Source of the DNA: a virus
IMG/VR virus record: IMGVR_UViG_3300033984_000379
Coordinates: 1-64,000 of that record
Reading direction: 5' to 3' (one strand)
DNA: 64,000 bases
Below the pieces are notes generated by a model. That model was not told the DNA's origin, did no database searches, and saw nothing but the letters and a program-made list of their open reading frames with translations. Within the stretch, counting starts at the first letter, position 1, and the number at the start of each line of letters is the position of its first letter. This document shows positions 1,404-8,867 of this stretch, piece by piece. The position numbers were made by a program, and so were the translations under genes.

Positions 1404-2603
1404 ATGGAAAACATTAAAATAGGTATTACTATTACAATCTTAACTCAAGAAGATTCTATATGGACTAATGGGATTAAACTAAATACTTTAATGTTTACTA
1501 CTTTATTAAAAAAATCACTAAAAAACTATCAAGTCTGTTTATTAAACTCCACGGATTTAGATTTATCAATAAAGAAACCTAAATTTTTACAAGGTGTTGA
1601 TGTTTATAAATTTGAGGATAAATACGAAGAAATGGATTTAATAATCACTATGGGTGCTCAAGTACACGAGAAATACTTAAAACATTTCAGGTCATTACCG
1701 AACAAAAGAGTTGTTGCGTATAAATGTGGTAATAATTACATTGTACATACAGAAAATGTGTTATTTAAACCGAGTATAGATAGTCCATTCCAGTATGAAA
1801 CAGAATTAGATGAAATATGGTATGTTCCCCAACAACACGAAACAAATTGTGGGTATTATCAGACCTTACATAGAACCAGGACCTTAATTGTTCCTTTTGT
1901 TTGGCATCAATCTTATTTAATTGATACCATTGTTGATATTGAGAAGGAGTTTGTTCAAGGGAAGTTTAAGAAAGGGTTTAAGTATGATAGAACAAAAGAG
2001 AAGAAGGTTATTGGGACTATGGAACCAAATCTAAATATTGTGAAATATTGTTTAATACCAACAATGATTGTTGAGGAATCATATAGAACAGAAATTGGTA
2101 AAAATAAGATTGAGAAAATGATGATAACTAATTCTGAAAACATATCAAAACATAAAGAGTTTTTATCAATCATAAAAACTTTTGATTTACATGCCGATGG
2201 TAAGATAAGTGCTGATGCTAGATATCAAACTTCTTATATGGTAAGTCAGTATTTGGATGTTGTTGTATGCCACCAATTACTAAACCCTTTGAATTACATC
2301 TATTTGGATGTTGCATATATGGGTTATCCGGTATTACATAACGCACCTATGTGTAAAGACTTGGGTTATTATTATGAGGGTAGTGATACGAAAGATGGTG
2401 CAAAACAATTGAATTGGATATTGGAGAACCACGACAATCATATTGATGAGTATAATGAAAAGAATAAAAAAGCTCTATGGAGGTATTCAGTTAATAACCC
2501 TGAATTGGTCGCAACATATGACAAATTAATCTATAATTTATTCAACGGAGGAAACCACGAATTAATTTATGATGAAACAACAAATTTATATAAAAATTTG
2601 TAA
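1404..2603 (+). CDS. DUF2827-family glycosyltransferase-like protein, copy 1
   Basis: 399 residues. It matches the DUF2827 pattern from memory: an N-terminal IGITI...SIWTNGIKLN segment, a middle DLIITMGAQ and VVAYKCGNNY, then DEIWYVPQQHE with GYYQTLHR and IVPFVWH. DUF2827 proteins are found in bacterial surface-polysaccharide loci and are thought to be GT-B-like transferases; the substrate is unknown. The adjacent gene is a full-length paralog, and 56 consecutive residues (encoded at 2268-2435) are identical between the two. The product probably modifies phage or host surface glycans. Confidence 0.65.
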   Translation: MENIKIGITITILTQEDSIWTNGIKLNTLMFTTLLKKSLKNYQVCLLNSTDLDLSIKKPKFLQGVDVYKFEDKYEEMDLIITMGAQVHEKYLKHFRSLPNKRVVAYKCGNNYIVHTENVLFKPSIDSPFQYETELDEIWYVPQQHETNCGYYQTLHRTRTLIVPFVWHQSYLIDTIVDIEKEFVQGKFKKGFKYDRTKEKKVIGTMEPNLNIVKYCLIPTMIVEESYRTEIGKNKIEKMMITNSENISKHKEFLSIIKTFDLHADGKISADARYQTSYMVSQYLDVVVCHQLLNPLNYIYLDVAYMGYPVLHNAPMCKDLGYYYEGSDTKDGAKQLNWILENHDNHIDEYNEKNKKALWRYSVNNPELVATYDKLIYNLFNGGNHELIYDETTNLYKNL

Positions 2604-2623
2604 TAATTAATATAATTATTGAT

Positions 2624-3814
2624 ATGGAAAAGTTAAAAATTGGAATAACCATAGGATTAAAATCAAATACGGAATCTATTTGGACTAACGGAATTAAACT
2701 AAACATATTAATTCTATTAAAGTTATTAAAAAAATCTCAAAAAAATTACGAGGTTTGTTTATTAAACACGATGAAGGTTGACTTTACGGACAAACCGGAT
2801 TATCTAAAGAACATTGATATTCATTATATTGATGATAAGTATAAAGAAATTGACTTGATGATTGTAATGGGTTCTCAAGTTACAGCAAAAATACTTCAGG
2901 ACTTCAAGAGTATGGAGAACAAGAAGATAGTATCATATAAGTGTGGAAACAATTATATATTGGCTATGGAAGATATCTTATTCAAGGAAAATCCCCCAGG
3001 ATTGAGTCAATATGAAACTGAATTTGACGAGGTATGGTATATACCTCAACAACACGAGACCAATCAGGGTTATTACCATACTTTATATAGAGCTAATTCA
3101 CTTATTGTACCATTTTTATGGCATCAGGAATACCTTTTATCGGCTTTGGTTGATATTGAGAGAGGTTATCAAGGTAAGAAATTCGCTAAAGGTTATGCTT
3201 ACAATCCGAATAAGGAAAAGAAGATGTTGGGAGTTATGGAACCGAACTTGAATGTTGTTAAGTTTTGTTTATTACCTATTATGATAGCCGAGGAATCGTA
3301 TAGGACCGATATAGGGAAAGAAAAGATACATAAGATGATGATAAGTAATTCTGAAAATTTGGTTAAACACAACGGATTTATGTCATTATTAAAGTCATTT
3401 GATATGTATAAAGATAATAAATTAACTTCAGAGAAAAGATATCAAACGGCATATGTTGTAAGTCAGTATATGGATATTTTGATATGTCATCAATTATTGA
3501 ACCCGTTAAACTACATCTATTTGGATGTTGCTTATATGGGTTACCCTGTATTACATAATGCTCCAATGTGTAAAGACCTTGGTTATTATTATGAGGGTAG
3601 TGATACAAAAGATGGTGCAAAACAATTAAACTGGATACTAGAAAATCACGATAAAAATCTTGATGAATATAATAAAAGAAATGATAAAGTGTTGTGGAGA
3701 TACTCTGCTGATAACCCAAAATTAATTGAAACTTATGATATGTTAATTCATAATTTATTTAATGGTGGAAATCACGGATTGGAGTATGATGAAACAACTA
3801 ATTTATATAAATAA
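2624..3814 (+). CDS. DUF2827-family glycosyltransferase-like protein, copy 2
   Basis: 396 residues and a tandem paralog of the previous gene, 20 bases downstream. It has the same DUF2827 landmarks: SIWTNGIKLN, MIVMGSQ, DEVWYIPQQHE, IVPFLWHQ and EPNLNVVKFCLLP. The N-terminal half has diverged, but codons 3485-3652 encode 56 residues identical to copy 1, so the C-terminal block is either strongly constrained or homogenised by gene conversion. The two copies may act on different sugars or acceptors. The family call is moderately sure; the function is inferred. Confidence 0.65.
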   Translation: MEKLKIGITIGLKSNTESIWTNGIKLNILILLKLLKKSQKNYEVCLLNTMKVDFTDKPDYLKNIDIHYIDDKYKEIDLMIVMGSQVTAKILQDFKSMENKKIVSYKCGNNYILAMEDILFKENPPGLSQYETEFDEVWYIPQQHETNQGYYHTLYRANSLIVPFLWHQEYLLSALVDIERGYQGKKFAKGYAYNPNKEKKMLGVMEPNLNVVKFCLLPIMIAEESYRTDIGKEKIHKMMISNSENLVKHNGFMSLLKSFDMYKDNKLTSEKRYQTAYVVSQYMDILICHQLLNPLNYIYLDVAYMGYPVLHNAPMCKDLGYYYEGSDTKDGAKQLNWILENHDKNLDEYNKRNDKVLWRYSADNPKLIETYDMLIHNLFNGGNHGLEYDETTNLYK

Positions 3815-4535: not shown

Positions 4536-5786
4536 ATGGATAAAATCTTCATACAAATAGCCTCATATAGAGACCCCCAACTTAATCCAACAATTAAAAG
4601 TTGTATTGATAACGCAAAACACCCTGAAAATTTGGTGTTTGGGATATGTAATCAATATCATCCGGAAGATGAGTTTAACATTGACGAATATAAAAATGAT
4701 GAACGATTTAGGGTTGTTGATGTTCTATATTCTGATAGTTTAGGTACTTGTTGGGCTAGAAATACTTTACAACAAAGATATAGTGGTGAAACATATACAT
4801 TACAAATTGATTCCCATATGCGTTTTGTGGAAAATTGGGACGATGAAATTATTAAAATGTATAATCAACTTTTAGATAAAGGTATTGAAAAACCCTTATT
4901 AACTGGTTATGTATCATCATTTAATCCAAACAACGACCCTAATGAGAGAATTAACGACCCTTGGGAAATGGTTTTTGACCGGTTTATACCCGAAGGAACC
5001 GTATTTACACTCCCTCAAACAATTCCTAATTGGAAAAACTTAACTGAACCAATACCTACAAGATTTTATTCGGCACACTTTTGTTTTGTATCCGGTGATT
5101 TTGTTGAACAAGTTCCTCACGACCCACATTTATATTTCCATTCTGAAGAAATGTCAATTGCGGTAAGAGCTTATACTCATGGATATAATCTTTATCATCC
5201 ACATAGAATTATTTGTTGGCATGAATATACTAGAAACGGAAGAGTACGTTGTTGGGATGATGATAAAGATTGGGGTAGAAAGAATGAAGCGTCACATTTA
5301 AGAAATAGAAAACTATTCTCAATGGATGGGGAAGTTTATAACCCGGAAGAATTTGGAATTTATGGATTTGGTTCAGAAAGAACACTAAAAGATTATGAAA
5401 GATATTCAGGTCTTTTATTCTCAAAACGCGCAGTTCAACAATATACATTAGATAAGAAATATCCCCCAAACCCACAAGTCTTTGAGACGGAGGAAGAATG
5501 GTTAGATAGTTACGCATCAATCTTTAGACATTGCATTGATGTTCACTTTAATTTAGTTCCGGAGACAGATTATGATTTTTGGGCGGTTACATTTCACGAT
5601 GAAAAGGATGAAACATTATATAGACGAGATGCTGATGTTAATGAGATTAATATGATGAAAAAAGACCCAGATGGGTATTGTAAAATATGGAGACAATTCC
5701 AAACCGCACATAAACCGAAGTATTGGGTTGTATGGCCTCATAGTCAATCAAAAGGTTGGGGTGAAAGAATAACGGGGAATTTATAA
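4536..5786 (+). CDS. GlcNAc-transferase-like glycosyltransferase (Skp1 GnT family)
   Basis: 416 residues from the ATG at 4536. A longer upstream frame (to 4374) is hydrophobic junk overlapping the J-domain gene, whereas MDKIFIQIASYRDPQL is the normal start of this family. It resembles the GlcNAc transferase family (PF11397) by IASYRDPQL near the N terminus, NLVFGICNQ, the DSH metal-binding variant of DXD in LQIDSHMRF, and FVSGDF with a following SEEMSIAVRAYTHG. Such enzymes transfer a sugar from UDP-GlcNAc to protein acceptors. It probably belongs to a virion or surface glycosylation set with its neighbours; only 8 bases separate it from the next gene. Confidence 0.75.
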   Translation: MDKIFIQIASYRDPQLNPTIKSCIDNAKHPENLVFGICNQYHPEDEFNIDEYKNDERFRVVDVLYSDSLGTCWARNTLQQRYSGETYTLQIDSHMRFVENWDDEIIKMYNQLLDKGIEKPLLTGYVSSFNPNNDPNERINDPWEMVFDRFIPEGTVFTLPQTIPNWKNLTEPIPTRFYSAHFCFVSGDFVEQVPHDPHLYFHSEEMSIAVRAYTHGYNLYHPHRIICWHEYTRNGRVRCWDDDKDWGRKNEASHLRNRKLFSMDGEVYNPEEFGIYGFGSERTLKDYERYSGLLFSKRAVQQYTLDKKYPPNPQVFETEEEWLDSYASIFRHCIDVHFNLVPETDYDFWAVTFHDEKDETLYRRDADVNEINMMKKDPDGYCKIWRQFQTAHKPKYWVVWPHSQSKGWGERITGNL

Positions 5787-5794
5787 TTGAAAAT

Positions 5795-6586
5795 ATGGAA
5801 ATAAAAAAAACAGTAATAGTTACAGCACTTTTTGATATTGGTAGAGATAAATGGGATAGTTATGGACTTTCATATCACACTTATTGTTGGTGGATGAGAA
5901 GTTTATTATGTCTTGATACTACAATGATTATTTATACTGAAGATAGGTTTAATGAAGAGATTATTAAGTATAGAAAAGAAGTTGACCCATTATTGAAAAA
6001 TACTACAATAATTTTACAACCAATAAATGAATTAGATGCTTATAAGATATTTTATACACCATTAAAGACTTTAATGGAAAGTAATGACTTTAATAAGTTA
6101 ATACAGTTCAAAGTACCTGAAATGACTAAACCATTATATAATGTTGTCAATTTTAGTAAATTATTTTATATTTTAGATTCTTACCGTAAGAATATATATG
6201 ATGCTGATTTATATATTTGGGCTGACGCGGGGGTTATTAGGGAAGATAACCCATATAAAAATAAAAAATGGCCAAATTTAGATTTGATTAATAAACTTGA
6301 TAATACTAAAGTTACTTTTTTCTGTCATCACGATTATGTGTCAGTTAAGGATTATAAATCACATACCCTATCTCAAAGTAGGTTTATTCAAGGAGGTTCT
6401 TTTTTTATCCCAAAACAATGTATTGAATCGGTTTGTGACAGGTTTAAAACAATTGCTTTAGAATGTATTCAAAATGGATATATTGGCAGTGATGAAAAAG
6501 TTTTAGATTTTGTTTATTTAGATAATCCCACCTCATTTAATTTAATTAAGTGTGGTTGGAGGGAGTATATTGATTTGTTCATTTAG
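5795..6586 (+). CDS. HtrL/YibB-like putative glycosyltransferase
   Basis: 263 residues. The start, VIVTALFDIGRDKWD, and the later MIIYTEDRF, KLFYILDSYR, LYIWADAGV and RFIQGGSFFIP match the layout of HtrL/YibB/WlaTC proteins of bacterial polysaccharide loci. The family is poorly characterised and is considered a GT-A-like transferase. WADAG takes the place of the usual DXD-like site. It follows the GlcNAc-transferase gene by 8 bases, so the two are probably one transcription unit. Family assignment is from memory of motifs. Confidence 0.6.
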   Translation: MEIKKTVIVTALFDIGRDKWDSYGLSYHTYCWWMRSLLCLDTTMIIYTEDRFNEEIIKYRKEVDPLLKNTTIILQPINELDAYKIFYTPLKTLMESNDFNKLIQFKVPEMTKPLYNVVNFSKLFYILDSYRKNIYDADLYIWADAGVIREDNPYKNKKWPNLDLINKLDNTKVTFFCHHDYVSVKDYKSHTLSQSRFIQGGSFFIPKQCIESVCDRFKTIALECIQNGYIGSDEKVLDFVYLDNPTSFNLIKCGWREYIDLFI

Positions 6587-7065: not shown

Positions 7066-7689
7066 ATGAAAATTATAATTACAGAAAGTAAAATATATAA
7101 CTTAGCGAAAAAACAATTAACCAAGAGATTTGGTAACTTAACACCTGTTGAGTATGACAGCTATCCGAATAGACTTTTTTATGTTGATGAAAAAGGAAAT
7201 ATTTATTTTGAACTTACTGATTGGAATGATGAAGTTTTTGTTGATTATTATACAATTTGGAGTTTTTTGGAAAATGTGTTTCAATTAGAACACAAACAAA
7301 TTCAACAACTTACAAAAGAATGGATTGAAGAATTTTACAATTTGGAGGTTGGGGAGATTAAAATGTTAATTGGTAAGACATCATCACGATGGATTAATTT
7401 TACAAGAAAATATAAACATAACCTTGCAAAACAAGAATTAACCAATAGATTTGGTAATTTGACACCGGTTCAAGATAGTCCTATTTGGGTACTTTATGTT
7501 GATAAAAATAAAAAACCATATTTAGGTTTTAATGAGGAGACAGGTTATGCAAATTACGATTATTCAATTTTGGAATTTTTAGAAAATAATTTTCAGTTTA
7601 GTGGTAGTGATAATGAAAGAATTATTGCAAGTTGGATGGAAAAACAATATAATTTAGACTTAAAAGACATTTCTTTAAATTTTTTATAA
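7066..7689 (+). CDS. MKIIITE-leader protein with an internal duplication
   Basis: 207 residues from the ATG at 7066; a longer frame to 6994 overlaps the previous gene and lacks the shared leader, so it is rejected. It begins MKIIITESKIYNL, the leader shared with the genes at 18575, 18990 and 19378. The body is two repeats, each starting with a LTxRFGNLTPV motif (about residues 17-27 and 125-135) and ending with WxExxYNLxxxxI. Function is unknown. The I-T-E/S junction fits the T4 prohead-protease rule (L/I-x-E), so the leader may be a capsid-targeting sequence; this is inference. Confidence 0.65.
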   Translation: MKIIITESKIYNLAKKQLTKRFGNLTPVEYDSYPNRLFYVDEKGNIYFELTDWNDEVFVDYYTIWSFLENVFQLEHKQIQQLTKEWIEEFYNLEVGEIKMLIGKTSSRWINFTRKYKHNLAKQELTNRFGNLTPVQDSPIWVLYVDKNKKPYLGFNEETGYANYDYSILEFLENNFQFSGSDNERIIASWMEKQYNLDLKDISLNFL

Positions 7690-7695
7690 TTTTTT

Positions 7696-7740
7696 TTTGA
7701 TAATTGAAATATTAGTTATATCTTTGACTTGTTGAAATGA
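7696..7740 (+). promoter_or_regulatory. Bacteroidota-type promoter P1
   Basis: TTTG at 7696-7699, a 19-base spacer, then TATCTTTG at 7719-7726. This fits the Bacteroidota primary-sigma consensus TTTG-N19-TAnnTTTG. The 22 bases from 7719 to 7740 are repeated exactly at 7811-7832. It lies 92 bases upstream of P2, with only AT-rich sequence between. Confidence 0.75.
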
Positions 7741-7787
7741 AGGAAACAATATCTGAAAAAAAAAATAAATATTTTTCCCTAAAAAGT

Positions 7788-7832
7788 TTTGATAATTAAA
7801 ATAAAAATAATATCTTTGACTTGTTGAAATGA
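7788..7832 (+). promoter_or_regulatory. Bacteroidota-type promoter P2 for the tandem RNAs
   Basis: TTTG at 7788-7791, a 19-base spacer, then TATCTTTG at 7811-7818, a perfect match to TTTG-N19-TAnnTTTG. Transcription should begin around 7823-7826 and run straight into the first structured RNA. The sequence and spacing match P1, so the promoter has been duplicated. Confidence 0.8.
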
Positions 7833-8025
7833 TTAAGGGTTTGCGGTTTCCCTAATAAAAAATCGTGCGGAACTTATACTTCTGCGGTAACTTAGAATGA
7901 GGATGATGTCCGAATACGTCTTAGGATGGTGGTTACCAGCTTCCCCATATACAGCTGAATGGGCGGTTATTAACAGCCGATAAATATACGGTTAGGTATA
8001 AAAGGGGACTTCGGTCTCCTTTTTT
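7832..8025 (+). ncRNA. Structured RNA, copy A
   Basis: A non-coding unit of about 190 bases with a promoter in front and a terminator behind. Predicted helices: 7867-7872 with 7880-7885 (GCGGAA/TTCTGC); 7886-7891 with 7932-7937 (GGTAAC/GTTACC), closing a conserved 40-base internal domain; 7944-7948 with 7959-7963 (CCCAT/ATGGG); and 7964-7968 with 7975-7979 around a conserved ATTAAC loop. Copy B keeps these helices through paired base changes. It is not a tRNA, tmRNA or other RNA I recognise. Its job is unknown; a decoy, packaging RNA or regulator are all possible. Confidence 0.8.
8000..8025 (+). terminator. Intrinsic terminator of RNA copy A
   Basis: AAAAGGGGAC and GTCTCCTTTT pair around a TTCG tetraloop, followed by T residues. 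It is a textbook rho-independent terminator. Confidence 0.85.
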
Positions 8026-8031
8026 AGACAT

Positions 8032-8223
8032 AAAGGGTTTACGGTTTCCTTAATAAAGAATCGGGTGAAACTTATAGTTTTACGGTAACTTAGAATGAGG
8101 ATGATGTCCGAATACATCTTAGGATGGTGGTTACCAGTTCTCCCGTATAAAACTTAACGGGCGTTTATTAACAAACGAGAAACATACGGTTAGGTAAAAA
8201 GAGAGACTTTGGTCTCTTTTTTT
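8032..8223 (+). ncRNA. Structured RNA, copy B
   Basis: A second copy 198 bases downstream of copy A. Helices: 8065-8070 with 8078-8083 (GTGAAA/TTTTAC); GGTAAC with GTTACC; 8142-8146 with 8157-8161 (CCCGT/ACGGG); 8162-8166 with 8173-8177 (CGTTT/AAACG) around the same ATTAAC loop. Compared with copy A, the first, third and fourth helices change on both strands and keep pairing, which is direct evidence of selection on structure. The central domain is almost invariant (one difference in more than 50 bases). It has no promoter of its own, so it depends on P2 read-through or processing. Confidence 0.8.
8196..8223 (+). terminator. Intrinsic terminator of RNA copy B
   Basis: AAAGAGAGAC pairs with GTCTCTTTTT around a TTTG loop, followed by T residues. 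It ends 3 bases before the stop codon of the convergent minus-strand gene. The stem sequence differs from that of copy A but the shape is kept. Confidence 0.85.
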
Positions 8224-8225
8224 AG

Positions 8226-8867
8226 TTATATAAGGTCTTTAACTTTATAACTTCCTTTTAATTGTGGTGTATCAAAAAATGATACCCCTTTAATTTGTGT
8301 GATAAAATTAACTTTATATTTATTTTTATCAAATCTATATACCTCAACAATTTCTTGATAATTGTTTTTAGTTAATAATAAATTTCTACCTTGACCTAAT
8401 CTCCAATCTTTAGCGTTTTTTATAAATTTTACGATTGTACTTAAGTTATTAATAAATAAGTCAATACCTTCATAAGTGTCAGGGTTTAAGATTCTACTAT
8501 TATGAAATTTACCTGGAAGTCCAGTCAATGGGTTTAATGGTGCGTAGTCAGGTTCTGAATTACGGAGTAATCTTTGTTTCCAGTGATTTGTTAGATTGAT
8601 ATCAAACATAATCTCACAACTTACTTGTCCATTTTTATTTGGCTGTATATATTCATCAGGACAAATCCATTTATTACCATTACTACTCCAATTATAAAAT
8701 GAATTAACTTTTAAAGTTAATTCTGAATTTAATCTATTAGGGACATTAACGGTTGACTTACCCTCAATTAATAGTTGGTTAATAAAGTTTTCGTGAAGAA
8801 CAACTTCTTGTATCGTCATTTCACTTTCAAGTGACTCCCGTAATATTTTTCTAATTAAATCTTTCAT
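8226..8867 (-). CDS. Hypothetical protein with a leader-like N terminus
   Basis: 213 residues, no family recognised. It starts MKDLIRKILRESLESEMT, a short basic-amphipathic N terminus containing L-R-E/S, which fits the T4 prohead protease cleavage rule. The remainder is a mixed alpha/beta domain with several Trp residues and no visible catalytic motif. It converges on the tandem RNAs, its stop lying 3 bases from their last terminator. TATTTATA lies 6 bases upstream of its start. Confidence 0.55.
   Translation of the reverse strand: MKDLIRKILRESLESEMTIQEVVLHENFINQLLIEGKSTVNVPNRLNSELTLKVNSFYNWSSNGNKWICPDEYIQPNKNGQVSCEIMFDINLTNHWKQRLLRNSEPDYAPLNPLTGLPGKFHNSRILNPDTYEGIDLFINNLSTIVKFIKNAKDWRLGQGRNLLLTKNNYQEIVEVYRFDKNKYKVNFITQIKGVSFFDTPQLKGSYKVKDLI

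Follow-up and report, generated by a model that had tools for sequence, protein, structure and literature searches.

What might a large phage make from two adjacent, similar stretches of DNA that hold no long reading frame and each end in an intrinsic terminator, and what could the product do? The stretch of DNA analysed here, referred to as the window, comprises 64,000 nucleotides of a virus record of 109,405 bases. Its polymerase, helicase, and tail-sheath genes match phage families, and we read the phage as T4-like.

Tandem units, promoter signals, and relatives of the RNA

The tandem copies 198 bases apart, each closed by a terminator, that an earlier note had described from the sequence are borne out: the units occupy 7832-8029 and 8030-8227, measure 198 nt each, and align at 84% identity with a start-to-start spacing of 198. 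The claim in the same note that there is no reading frame is correct for long frames and incorrect for short ones, four of which are present (28 codons at 7897-7983 and 20 codons at 8095-8157 on the + strand; 32 and 41 codons on the - strand). The two + strand frames share their start, and the aligned frame in the relative L003 ends after nine codons. The features of the transcription unit are as follows.

7695-7740, + strand: upstream copy of the promoter region, an 89% repeat of 7787-7832, with TATCTTTG at 7719-7726 fitting TAnnTTTG (PMC7366714)
7787-7832, + strand: promoter region directly before copy 1, with TATCTTTG at 7811-7818; the box is kept in relatives
7832-8025, + strand: RNA copy 1, its 5' end placed by inference; core model R3 matches 7886-7966 with 80.2 bits (an R3 training sequence)
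8000-8025, + strand: copy 1 terminator, an inverted repeat followed by a T run, read directly
8030-8223, + strand: RNA copy 2; R3 matches 8084-8164 with 85.6 bits (also an R3 training sequence)
8196-8223, + strand: copy 2 terminator, read directly

The -7 consensus of Bacteroidota is given as TAnnTTTG in PMC7366714. The promoter region is duplicated at 92-base spacing (7695-7832), and a TAnnTTTG box, nearly always TATCTTTG, stands ahead of the RNA in relatives with upstream sequence covered, second tandem copies excepted; L005 carries TACCTTTG, and L006 and L243 begin at the edge of the sequence covered. Between 7601 and 8300 the + strand holds no further TAnnTTTG, and none precedes copy 2, which must therefore use read-through or another promoter, or be silent; probably it relies on read-through or is silent. 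The host-type promoter before copy 1 suggests that the RNA is probably made early in infection. The gene upstream of the RNA (7069-7689) has an internal duplication, 7072-7149 against 7393-7470 at 74%. Elsewhere in the window, tandem DUF2827 genes (1404-2603 and 2624-3814) precede one gene for a GlcNAc-type glycosyltransferase and one of the HtrL_YibB kind.

Rfam 15 was searched with the whole window and no family reached its gathering threshold; a relaxed scan of 7690-8300 returned seven matches, the best at E 0.47, and the relaxed results for the window, L160, and L115 all lie below gathering scores. Eleven relative loci yielded tRNAs only, in L270. The earlier note had known no family that matches, and in Rfam none does, for the window or for the RNA of its relatives. 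Nor was such an RNA found described in the literature on structured RNAs of phages and Bacteroidetes, as covered by titles and abstract openings, with subscription journals and preprints outside that search. Judged by these comparisons, the RNA is a family unlisted in Rfam with a conserved core.

Merging near-identical copies left 15 representative RNA sequences, drawn from IMG/VR contigs and one Flavobacterium chromosome. They fall into type I (w1, w2, L003, L123, L181, L253, L182, L198, L243, L270) and type II (L160, L192, L195, L115, L103). A 20-base core pattern found four IMG/VR contigs (L003-L006), of which L004 carries one RNA copy and L005 and L006 carry two; the single copy of L003, 88% identical, belongs to another T4-like phage and adjoins a gene with a weak late sigma factor match. 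Among polymerase loci, where the best 80 of 269 relatives were kept, covariance model R1 picked out, in L123-L126, a distantly related RNA that lies upstream of polymerase (49.7 bits). Model R2, patterns, and neighbour-protein searches added L103, L114/L115, L160, L181, L182, L192, L195, L198/L241, and L243, and the RNA is present in 9 of the best 80 polymerase loci (L054, L055, L103, L114, L115, L123-L126). Nine type I members went into the core model R3, with which 76 of the 80 polymerase loci were searched. Six type II loci outside its training (L103, L114, L115, L160, L192, L195) score at E 0.00045 to 0.006; R3 is weak on type II, its matches to three of the six spanning about half the model. 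The search of whole records can miss members, as R1 is silent on G026 and G027 yet matches their loci L123 and L125.

A 282-kb phage record, G004, is nearly identical to the window around the RNA and carries three copies. The third, L270 (G004:197000-201000), is divergent, with its core at about 1988-2084; it sits among phage tRNA genes (1090-1255, 2603-3721). Against named phages, blastn of the window RNA aligned only about 28-41 bases around the copy 1 terminator in the best 20 of 39 records, and the L270 RNA, the L253 RNA, and the window partner protein (described below) had no matches there. The window polymerase reaches about 25% identity or less in the phage-record collection (best 12 of 17 records matched), which suggests a phage group with no close relative in the collection searched.

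Several classes of match were discarded. The 16-mer GATGATGTCCGAATAC (window 7901-7916) matched 49 stretches, of which only L003-L006 were RNA loci on reading; it also encodes DDVRI in a phage protein gene (L009, L019, L020, L028, L043, L051), which we judged a coincidence. Core-pattern matches (28 and 53 stretches) were sorted by eye, and those without promoter box and RNA context were dropped, as were a Paraburkholderia match (L254) and an R3 match at G007:41474, both inside open reading frames. Weak R1 and R2 matches, mostly at terminators, were ignored.

One relative is chromosomal. Flavobacterium aciduliphilum DSM 25663 (NZ_QLSZ01000003.1, 119107-119360; L253) carries an RNA that matches the L181 RNA at 87% identity along about 250 bases. 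Searches of this genome found no partner and no relative of the phage polymerase, the latter search having no positive control. Within about 20 kb of L253 lie genes matching the PADLOC models E2, JAB, and WYL, a DprA/SLOG-like gene, and a Sir2 gene. Among 398 genomes of the genus, R3 with strict filters matched two, DSM 25663 and another that looks coding (G303, dropped because the core pattern is absent and, by eye, the match is coding). At the sensitivity of the R3 search, few bacteria carry the RNA, and Flavobacterium is a plausible host of these phages.

A covarying core with a predicted pseudoknot

By folding energy, copy 1 is unremarkable (z -0.83) and copy 2 does somewhat better (z -2.22); a structured RNA would not be proved by energy alone. 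The three helices that the earlier note had seen to change on both strands are all present: GCGGAA/TTCTGC against GTGAAA/TTTTAC, CCCAT/ATGGG against CCCGT/ACGGG, and CGGTT/AGCCG against CGTTT/AAACG. The pseudoknot, the promoter box, and the convergent partner gene are additions to that account. The elements of the fold lie as follows in the window.

7867-7885, + strand: copy 1 helix P2, GCGGAA/TTCTGC, with both-side change at 2 of 6 pairs in near relatives
7886-7937, + strand: copy 1 P3 (GGTAACT/GGTTACC) around P3a (CGTC 7917-7920 / GATG 7925-7928)
7938-7963, + strand: copy 1 predicted H-type pseudoknot, AGCT 7938-7941 / AGCT 7953-7956, interleaved with P4, CCCAT 7944-7948 / ATGGG 7959-7963
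7964-7979, + strand: copy 1 hairpin P5, CGGTT-ATTAAC-AGCCG, with both-side change at 1 of 5 pairs in near relatives
8084-8135, + strand: copy 2 P3 with P3a (CATC 8115-8118 / GATG 8123-8126)
8136-8161, + strand: copy 2 predicted pseudoknot, AGTT 8136-8139 / AACT 8151-8154, with P4, CCCGT 8142-8146 / ACGGG 8157-8161

From 5' to 3', the core consists of the first side of P3, a loop near GAAAA, a small variable hairpin, GAAUA, P3a (CRUC, four loop letters, GAYG), GGUG, the other side of P3, and the H-type pseudoknot, in which four letters ahead of P4 pair with four letters of the P4 loop. The pseudoknot pair takes the forms AGCT/AGCT, AGTT/AACT, GGCT/AGCC, GGGT/ACCC, and AGGT/GCCT, with AGGA/TCCT in type II; the P4 stem varies as CCCAT/ATGGG, CCCGT/ACGGG, CTGGT/ACCAG, CTTAC/GTAAG, and CTTGG/CCAAG. 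An alternative helix, AGGATG/CGTCTT, used in models R1 and R2, was replaced by CRUC/GAUG once distant relatives had been seen; CRUC-tetraloop-GAUG also renders the central hairpin better than the drawings of the folding programs.

The compensatory change that the earlier note had taken as evidence proved mixed among eight near relatives and firmer when distant ones were included. In the near relatives, both-side change occurs at 6 of 51 pairs, a count reached by 90 of 500 shuffles, and the covariation score (0.204) exceeds all 500 shuffles. In the wider alignment A8 (nine members, aligned with MAFFT by sequence only, with no fitting to structure), 91.2% of 171 cells pair and the covariation that the note had proposed looking for is seen: both-side change affects 11 of the 20 pairs, against a mean of 6.2 after shuffling, and 2 of 500 shuffles attain that count. 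The covariation score is 0.481 against 0.252 after shuffling, with none of the 500 reaching it, and a slid structure gives at most 0.253; the number of further pair types is unremarkable (157 of 500 shuffles reach it). An alignment of distant relatives fitted to the structure provides a second line of covariation support.

By element, both-side changes in A8 fall in P4 (5/5), P3 (4/7), and the pseudoknot (2/4), with none in P3a (0/4). With strands set by eye, a choice that favours pairing, and type II strands outside the counts, P3a pairs in 36 of 36 cells, the pseudoknot in 36 of 36, P4 in 43 of 45, and P3 in 58 of 63. When strands are mixed between members, pairing falls to 63% in P4, 68% in the pseudoknot, and 71% in P3, and stays at 100% in P3a. 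All 20 positions pair in L270, which was used in no model, again with strands set by eye. The invariant letters of A8 lie mostly in and around the P3 internal loop (GAAAA / AAUAC / GAUGGUG). The computations show the RNA family and its fold, and the proposal that a structured RNA is selected here for its shape finds support in the covariation among relatives and the absence of an Rfam match.

A convergent partner gene linked to the RNA

The 3' end of the tandem RNA faces that of a gene on the other strand, the two ends lying a few bases apart (8223 and 8226).

8226-8867, - strand: convergent partner gene, 213 aa, with leader MKDLIRKILRE plus body, a weakly RelE/RegB-like predicted fold, and a TATTTAT box just before the start codon

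We found 11 partner loci with the window-type body and 9 with a different body at the same position. The RNA core lies on the opposite strand in all 20, roughly 150-350 nt from the partner 3' end; the 20 represent about ten lineages, many being near-identical. The partner is also present at L198, L241, and L243, which were found through the RNA. R3 matched 12 of 32 phage records, 11 after G007 was dropped for its open reading frame. A full-length partner occurs in 10 of the 11 RNA-positive records (G001 being the exception) and in 0 of the 21 others, a biased count in that many records are fragments and 7 of the 10 partner-positive ones had been found through the RNA or the partner; G007, among the 21, matches the partner's leader end only. 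The linkage of RNA and partner gene is shown by computation. The RNA occurs without an adjacent partner in L003, in L270, the third copy of G004, and in the Flavobacterium chromosome. RNA without partner and never partner without RNA is the pattern that an antidote would show, in what is a small sample.

Database searches with the partner gave little: nine partner proteins had no Pfam match at or above cut-off, eight type I partners had none in PADLOC, PHROGs returned nothing better than E 0.011 for the partner proteins, and sequence searches of solved structures returned nothing credible. The AlphaFold2 model of the type I partner (pLDDT 82.5, pTM 0.80) gave T4 RegB as the top row in VIA-align (Z 4.7, rmsd 4.0, 113 aligned), followed mainly by RelE, HigB, ParE, and CdiA-CT at about Z 3-4, with none at Z 5 or above. 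Foldseek reached a best E of 0.54 in PDB and 0.016 among viral models, the latter to an unnamed protein. Such weak structural scores could reflect a common arrangement; the model weakly suggests a RelE/RegB-like ribonuclease fold for the type I partner. RegB itself is described as structurally like the toxins RelE and YoeB (PMC3014915). Invariant residues in the type I partner are H95, R99, R102, T190, Q191, K193, and G194, a set that would suit an enzyme, and the first six are candidate catalytic residues. The type II partner model was unusable (pLDDT 39).

Only the first 27 residues align between the type I and type II partner families (A6, A7; P 9e-8), the leader common to both being M-x-x-L-I-x-x-I-L-x-E. 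We rejected the leader as an RNA-specific feature, as the same leader heads unrelated genes. Other phage genes that bear it are G037:183747-183812, the only one of the five listed here to be read in context, G007:26197-26430, G038:168799-168918, G012:218423-218542, and G040:10956-11051; in G007 a further leader-bearing gene lies at the dropped R3 match. Possibly the leader is a capsid targeting signal of this phage group. A TATTTAT box stands just before 13 of 13 partner starts, and boxes of this kind (three variants) occur within 25 bases of 14 of the 44 window genes, the partner included; another of the 14 has a head-tail adaptor match. We take the box to be a late promoter because of its likeness to the T4 late box, and the partner gene is possibly expressed late through it. 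We infer, with reason, that the partner may be packaged in the head.

RNA and partner body change together at two shared sites. When L182 is compared with L192, the 100 bases ahead of the start of the partner match at 95%, the leader at 91%, and the promoter region of the RNA at 82%. The partner bodies, at 46%, are no closer than shuffled sequence (mean 45%), and the RNAs reach 56% (shuffled maximum 50%); the next 300 bases beyond the promoter region are only 49% identical. Both loci lie between related genes on either side, L192 having one extra gene on the RNA side (by eye). Between L181 and L160, identity is 88% before the partner start, 89% in the leader, and 75% in the promoter region, with 46% in the partner body and 41% in the RNA; it is 75% beyond the promoter region, and both loci stand between polymerase and a 125-aa gene. 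At different sites, L160 and L192 share 94% of the RNA and 78% of the partner body. Across the 13 pairs examined, RNA type always equals partner type. Both could be moved without a functional tie by recombination between the leader and the RNA promoter, which are conserved, and since such exchange would also yield joint change, this pattern supports a functional tie without proving it. In L181, HNH-like free-standing nuclease genes (3015-3725 and 5598-6182, by sequence inspection) flank the RNA-partner cassette.

Possible roles of the RNA and its partner

We tentatively favour, at rather less than even confidence, a reading in which the pseudoknotted RNA binds and restrains the protein of the convergent, leader-bearing RelE/RegB-like gene. 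The two RNA copies would be made early from the host-type promoter before copy 1, and the partner protein late, with a short leader, an arrangement reminiscent of the internal head proteins of T4. The core of the RNA, with its P3 internal loop and pseudoknot, would bind and restrain the partner, as pseudoknotted antitoxin RNAs do ToxN, so that the phage could make and package the enzyme and survive its injection with its own messages spared. A bolder version of this reading, which we consider rather unlikely, is a toxin and RNA-antidote cassette of new layout, in which a late RelE/RegB-fold ribonuclease would be packaged, injected, and restrained by an early RNA, RNA and body would be exchanged together, and orphan RNAs, whether of other phages or of the Flavobacterium chromosome, would serve as immunity against the injected enzyme.

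The nearest known arrangement is the type III toxin-antitoxin system, whose toxin families are ToxN, CptN, and TenpN. In that arrangement a pseudoknotted ToxI occludes the ToxN active site, and a tandem array of short repeats with a terminator lies directly upstream of the toxin gene (PMC5086642). As in ToxIN and CptIN, an H-type pseudoknot RNA, here predicted, is genetically tied to a possible endoribonuclease. In the present loci, however, the genes converge, with the RNA on the opposite strand in 20 of 20 partner loci and seemingly different promoters; the RNA, some 195 nt long, is built on a core of several helices and not on arrayed short repeats; and the partner yielded no ToxN match, although a distant kinship may exist. 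On the grounds of layout and the missing ToxN match, membership of type III was dropped.

Elements of the favoured reading have separate counterparts in T4. RegB heads the structural matches to the type I partner model, weakly at Z 4.7, but there is no sequence family match, and the partner has a leader and possibly a late box; RegB cuts are reported within 45 s of infection (PMC3014915). The internal, injected proteins of T4 share a leader ahead of very diverse bodies (PMC3012670), as the partners here share a short N-terminal leader before variable ones; unlike at the present loci, no paired RNA is mentioned alongside the capsid targeting sequence in the part of that source on which we draw. 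Among comparable phage RNAs are the stable RNAs C and D of T4. The L270 copy, placed among phage tRNA genes, resembles them in location; no tRNA gene was found in the window.

The main rival to the partner-antidote reading, since the RNA also occurs without a partner, is that the RNA targets a host protein, serving as its decoy or inhibitor, and that the convergent gene is no more than a frequent neighbour; the target could be RNA polymerase, a ribonuclease of the host, or a defence toxin. We regard this as doubtful but serious. The clustering of invariant letters at the predicted P3 internal loop is what a protein-binding site would lead one to expect, and the host-type promoter, the three copies in G004, and the copies without a partner all suit such a role. 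There is also a precedent in phage PhiTE, whose escape mutants suppress the host toxin ToxN by means of a pseudo-ToxI RNA that they express (PMC5449768). Like that RNA, the present one is phage-made, structured, and could neutralise an RNase; pseudo-ToxI, however, mimics a host antitoxin repeat, and in Rfam scans no host RNA was found that the present one mimics. Against the decoy stand the RNA at 20 of 20 partner loci and the joint change of RNA and partner types.

Joint change would carry less weight if the RNA were a base-pairing regulator of phage or host mRNAs that moved with the partner through recombining conserved flanks, and the changed stretch does have conserved ends able to recombine (leader 89-91%, promoter region 75-82%). 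The conserved letters, however, lie in a compact folded core and not in an open seed, and we hold this role to be unlikely. Control of the convergent gene's expression through the shared 3' region or transcriptional interference is more improbable again: the 3' ends at 8223 and 8226 would allow it, but it would not require a conserved covarying core, and the RNA is also found without the gene.

That the RNA is the mRNA of a short peptide is very improbable. The type II RNAs L160, L192, L195, and L103 do hold an open reading frame starting MSKK and containing NPNTSKDG, and the window copies hold short frames starting MRMMSEY. Yet the window type and type II do not have the same frame, which is closed in L181 and L253 and ends early in L003 and in L115, there at the tetraloop (all by eye), and the compensatory changes fit helices. 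A packaging RNA, a role offered by the earlier note and one for which the phi29 packaging RNA of similar size is the model, is most improbable. Such an RNA would be required for packaging and so should be present in all relatives, whereas the RNA occurs in 11 of 32 phage records and 21 are without a match, in a set with many fragments and no record known to be complete. A further copy belongs to a Flavobacterium chromosome that gave no phage polymerase match, in a search that had no positive control.

Found with a usually convergent partner gene in large T4-like phages of water bacteria, the RNA hints, through the modelled fold of that partner, at control or neutralisation of a candidate RNA-cutting enzyme. 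In our view, lytic phages offer few structured noncoding RNAs, and these rarely have a partner that can be put to the test. The family described here combines a well-supported fold with a candidate protein partner, provides natural cassettes for comparison, and includes a copy in the named Flavobacterium strain DSM 25663. It would connect the RNA biology of phages with ribonucleases under RNA control and with head proteins that are injected, all within a large phage group.
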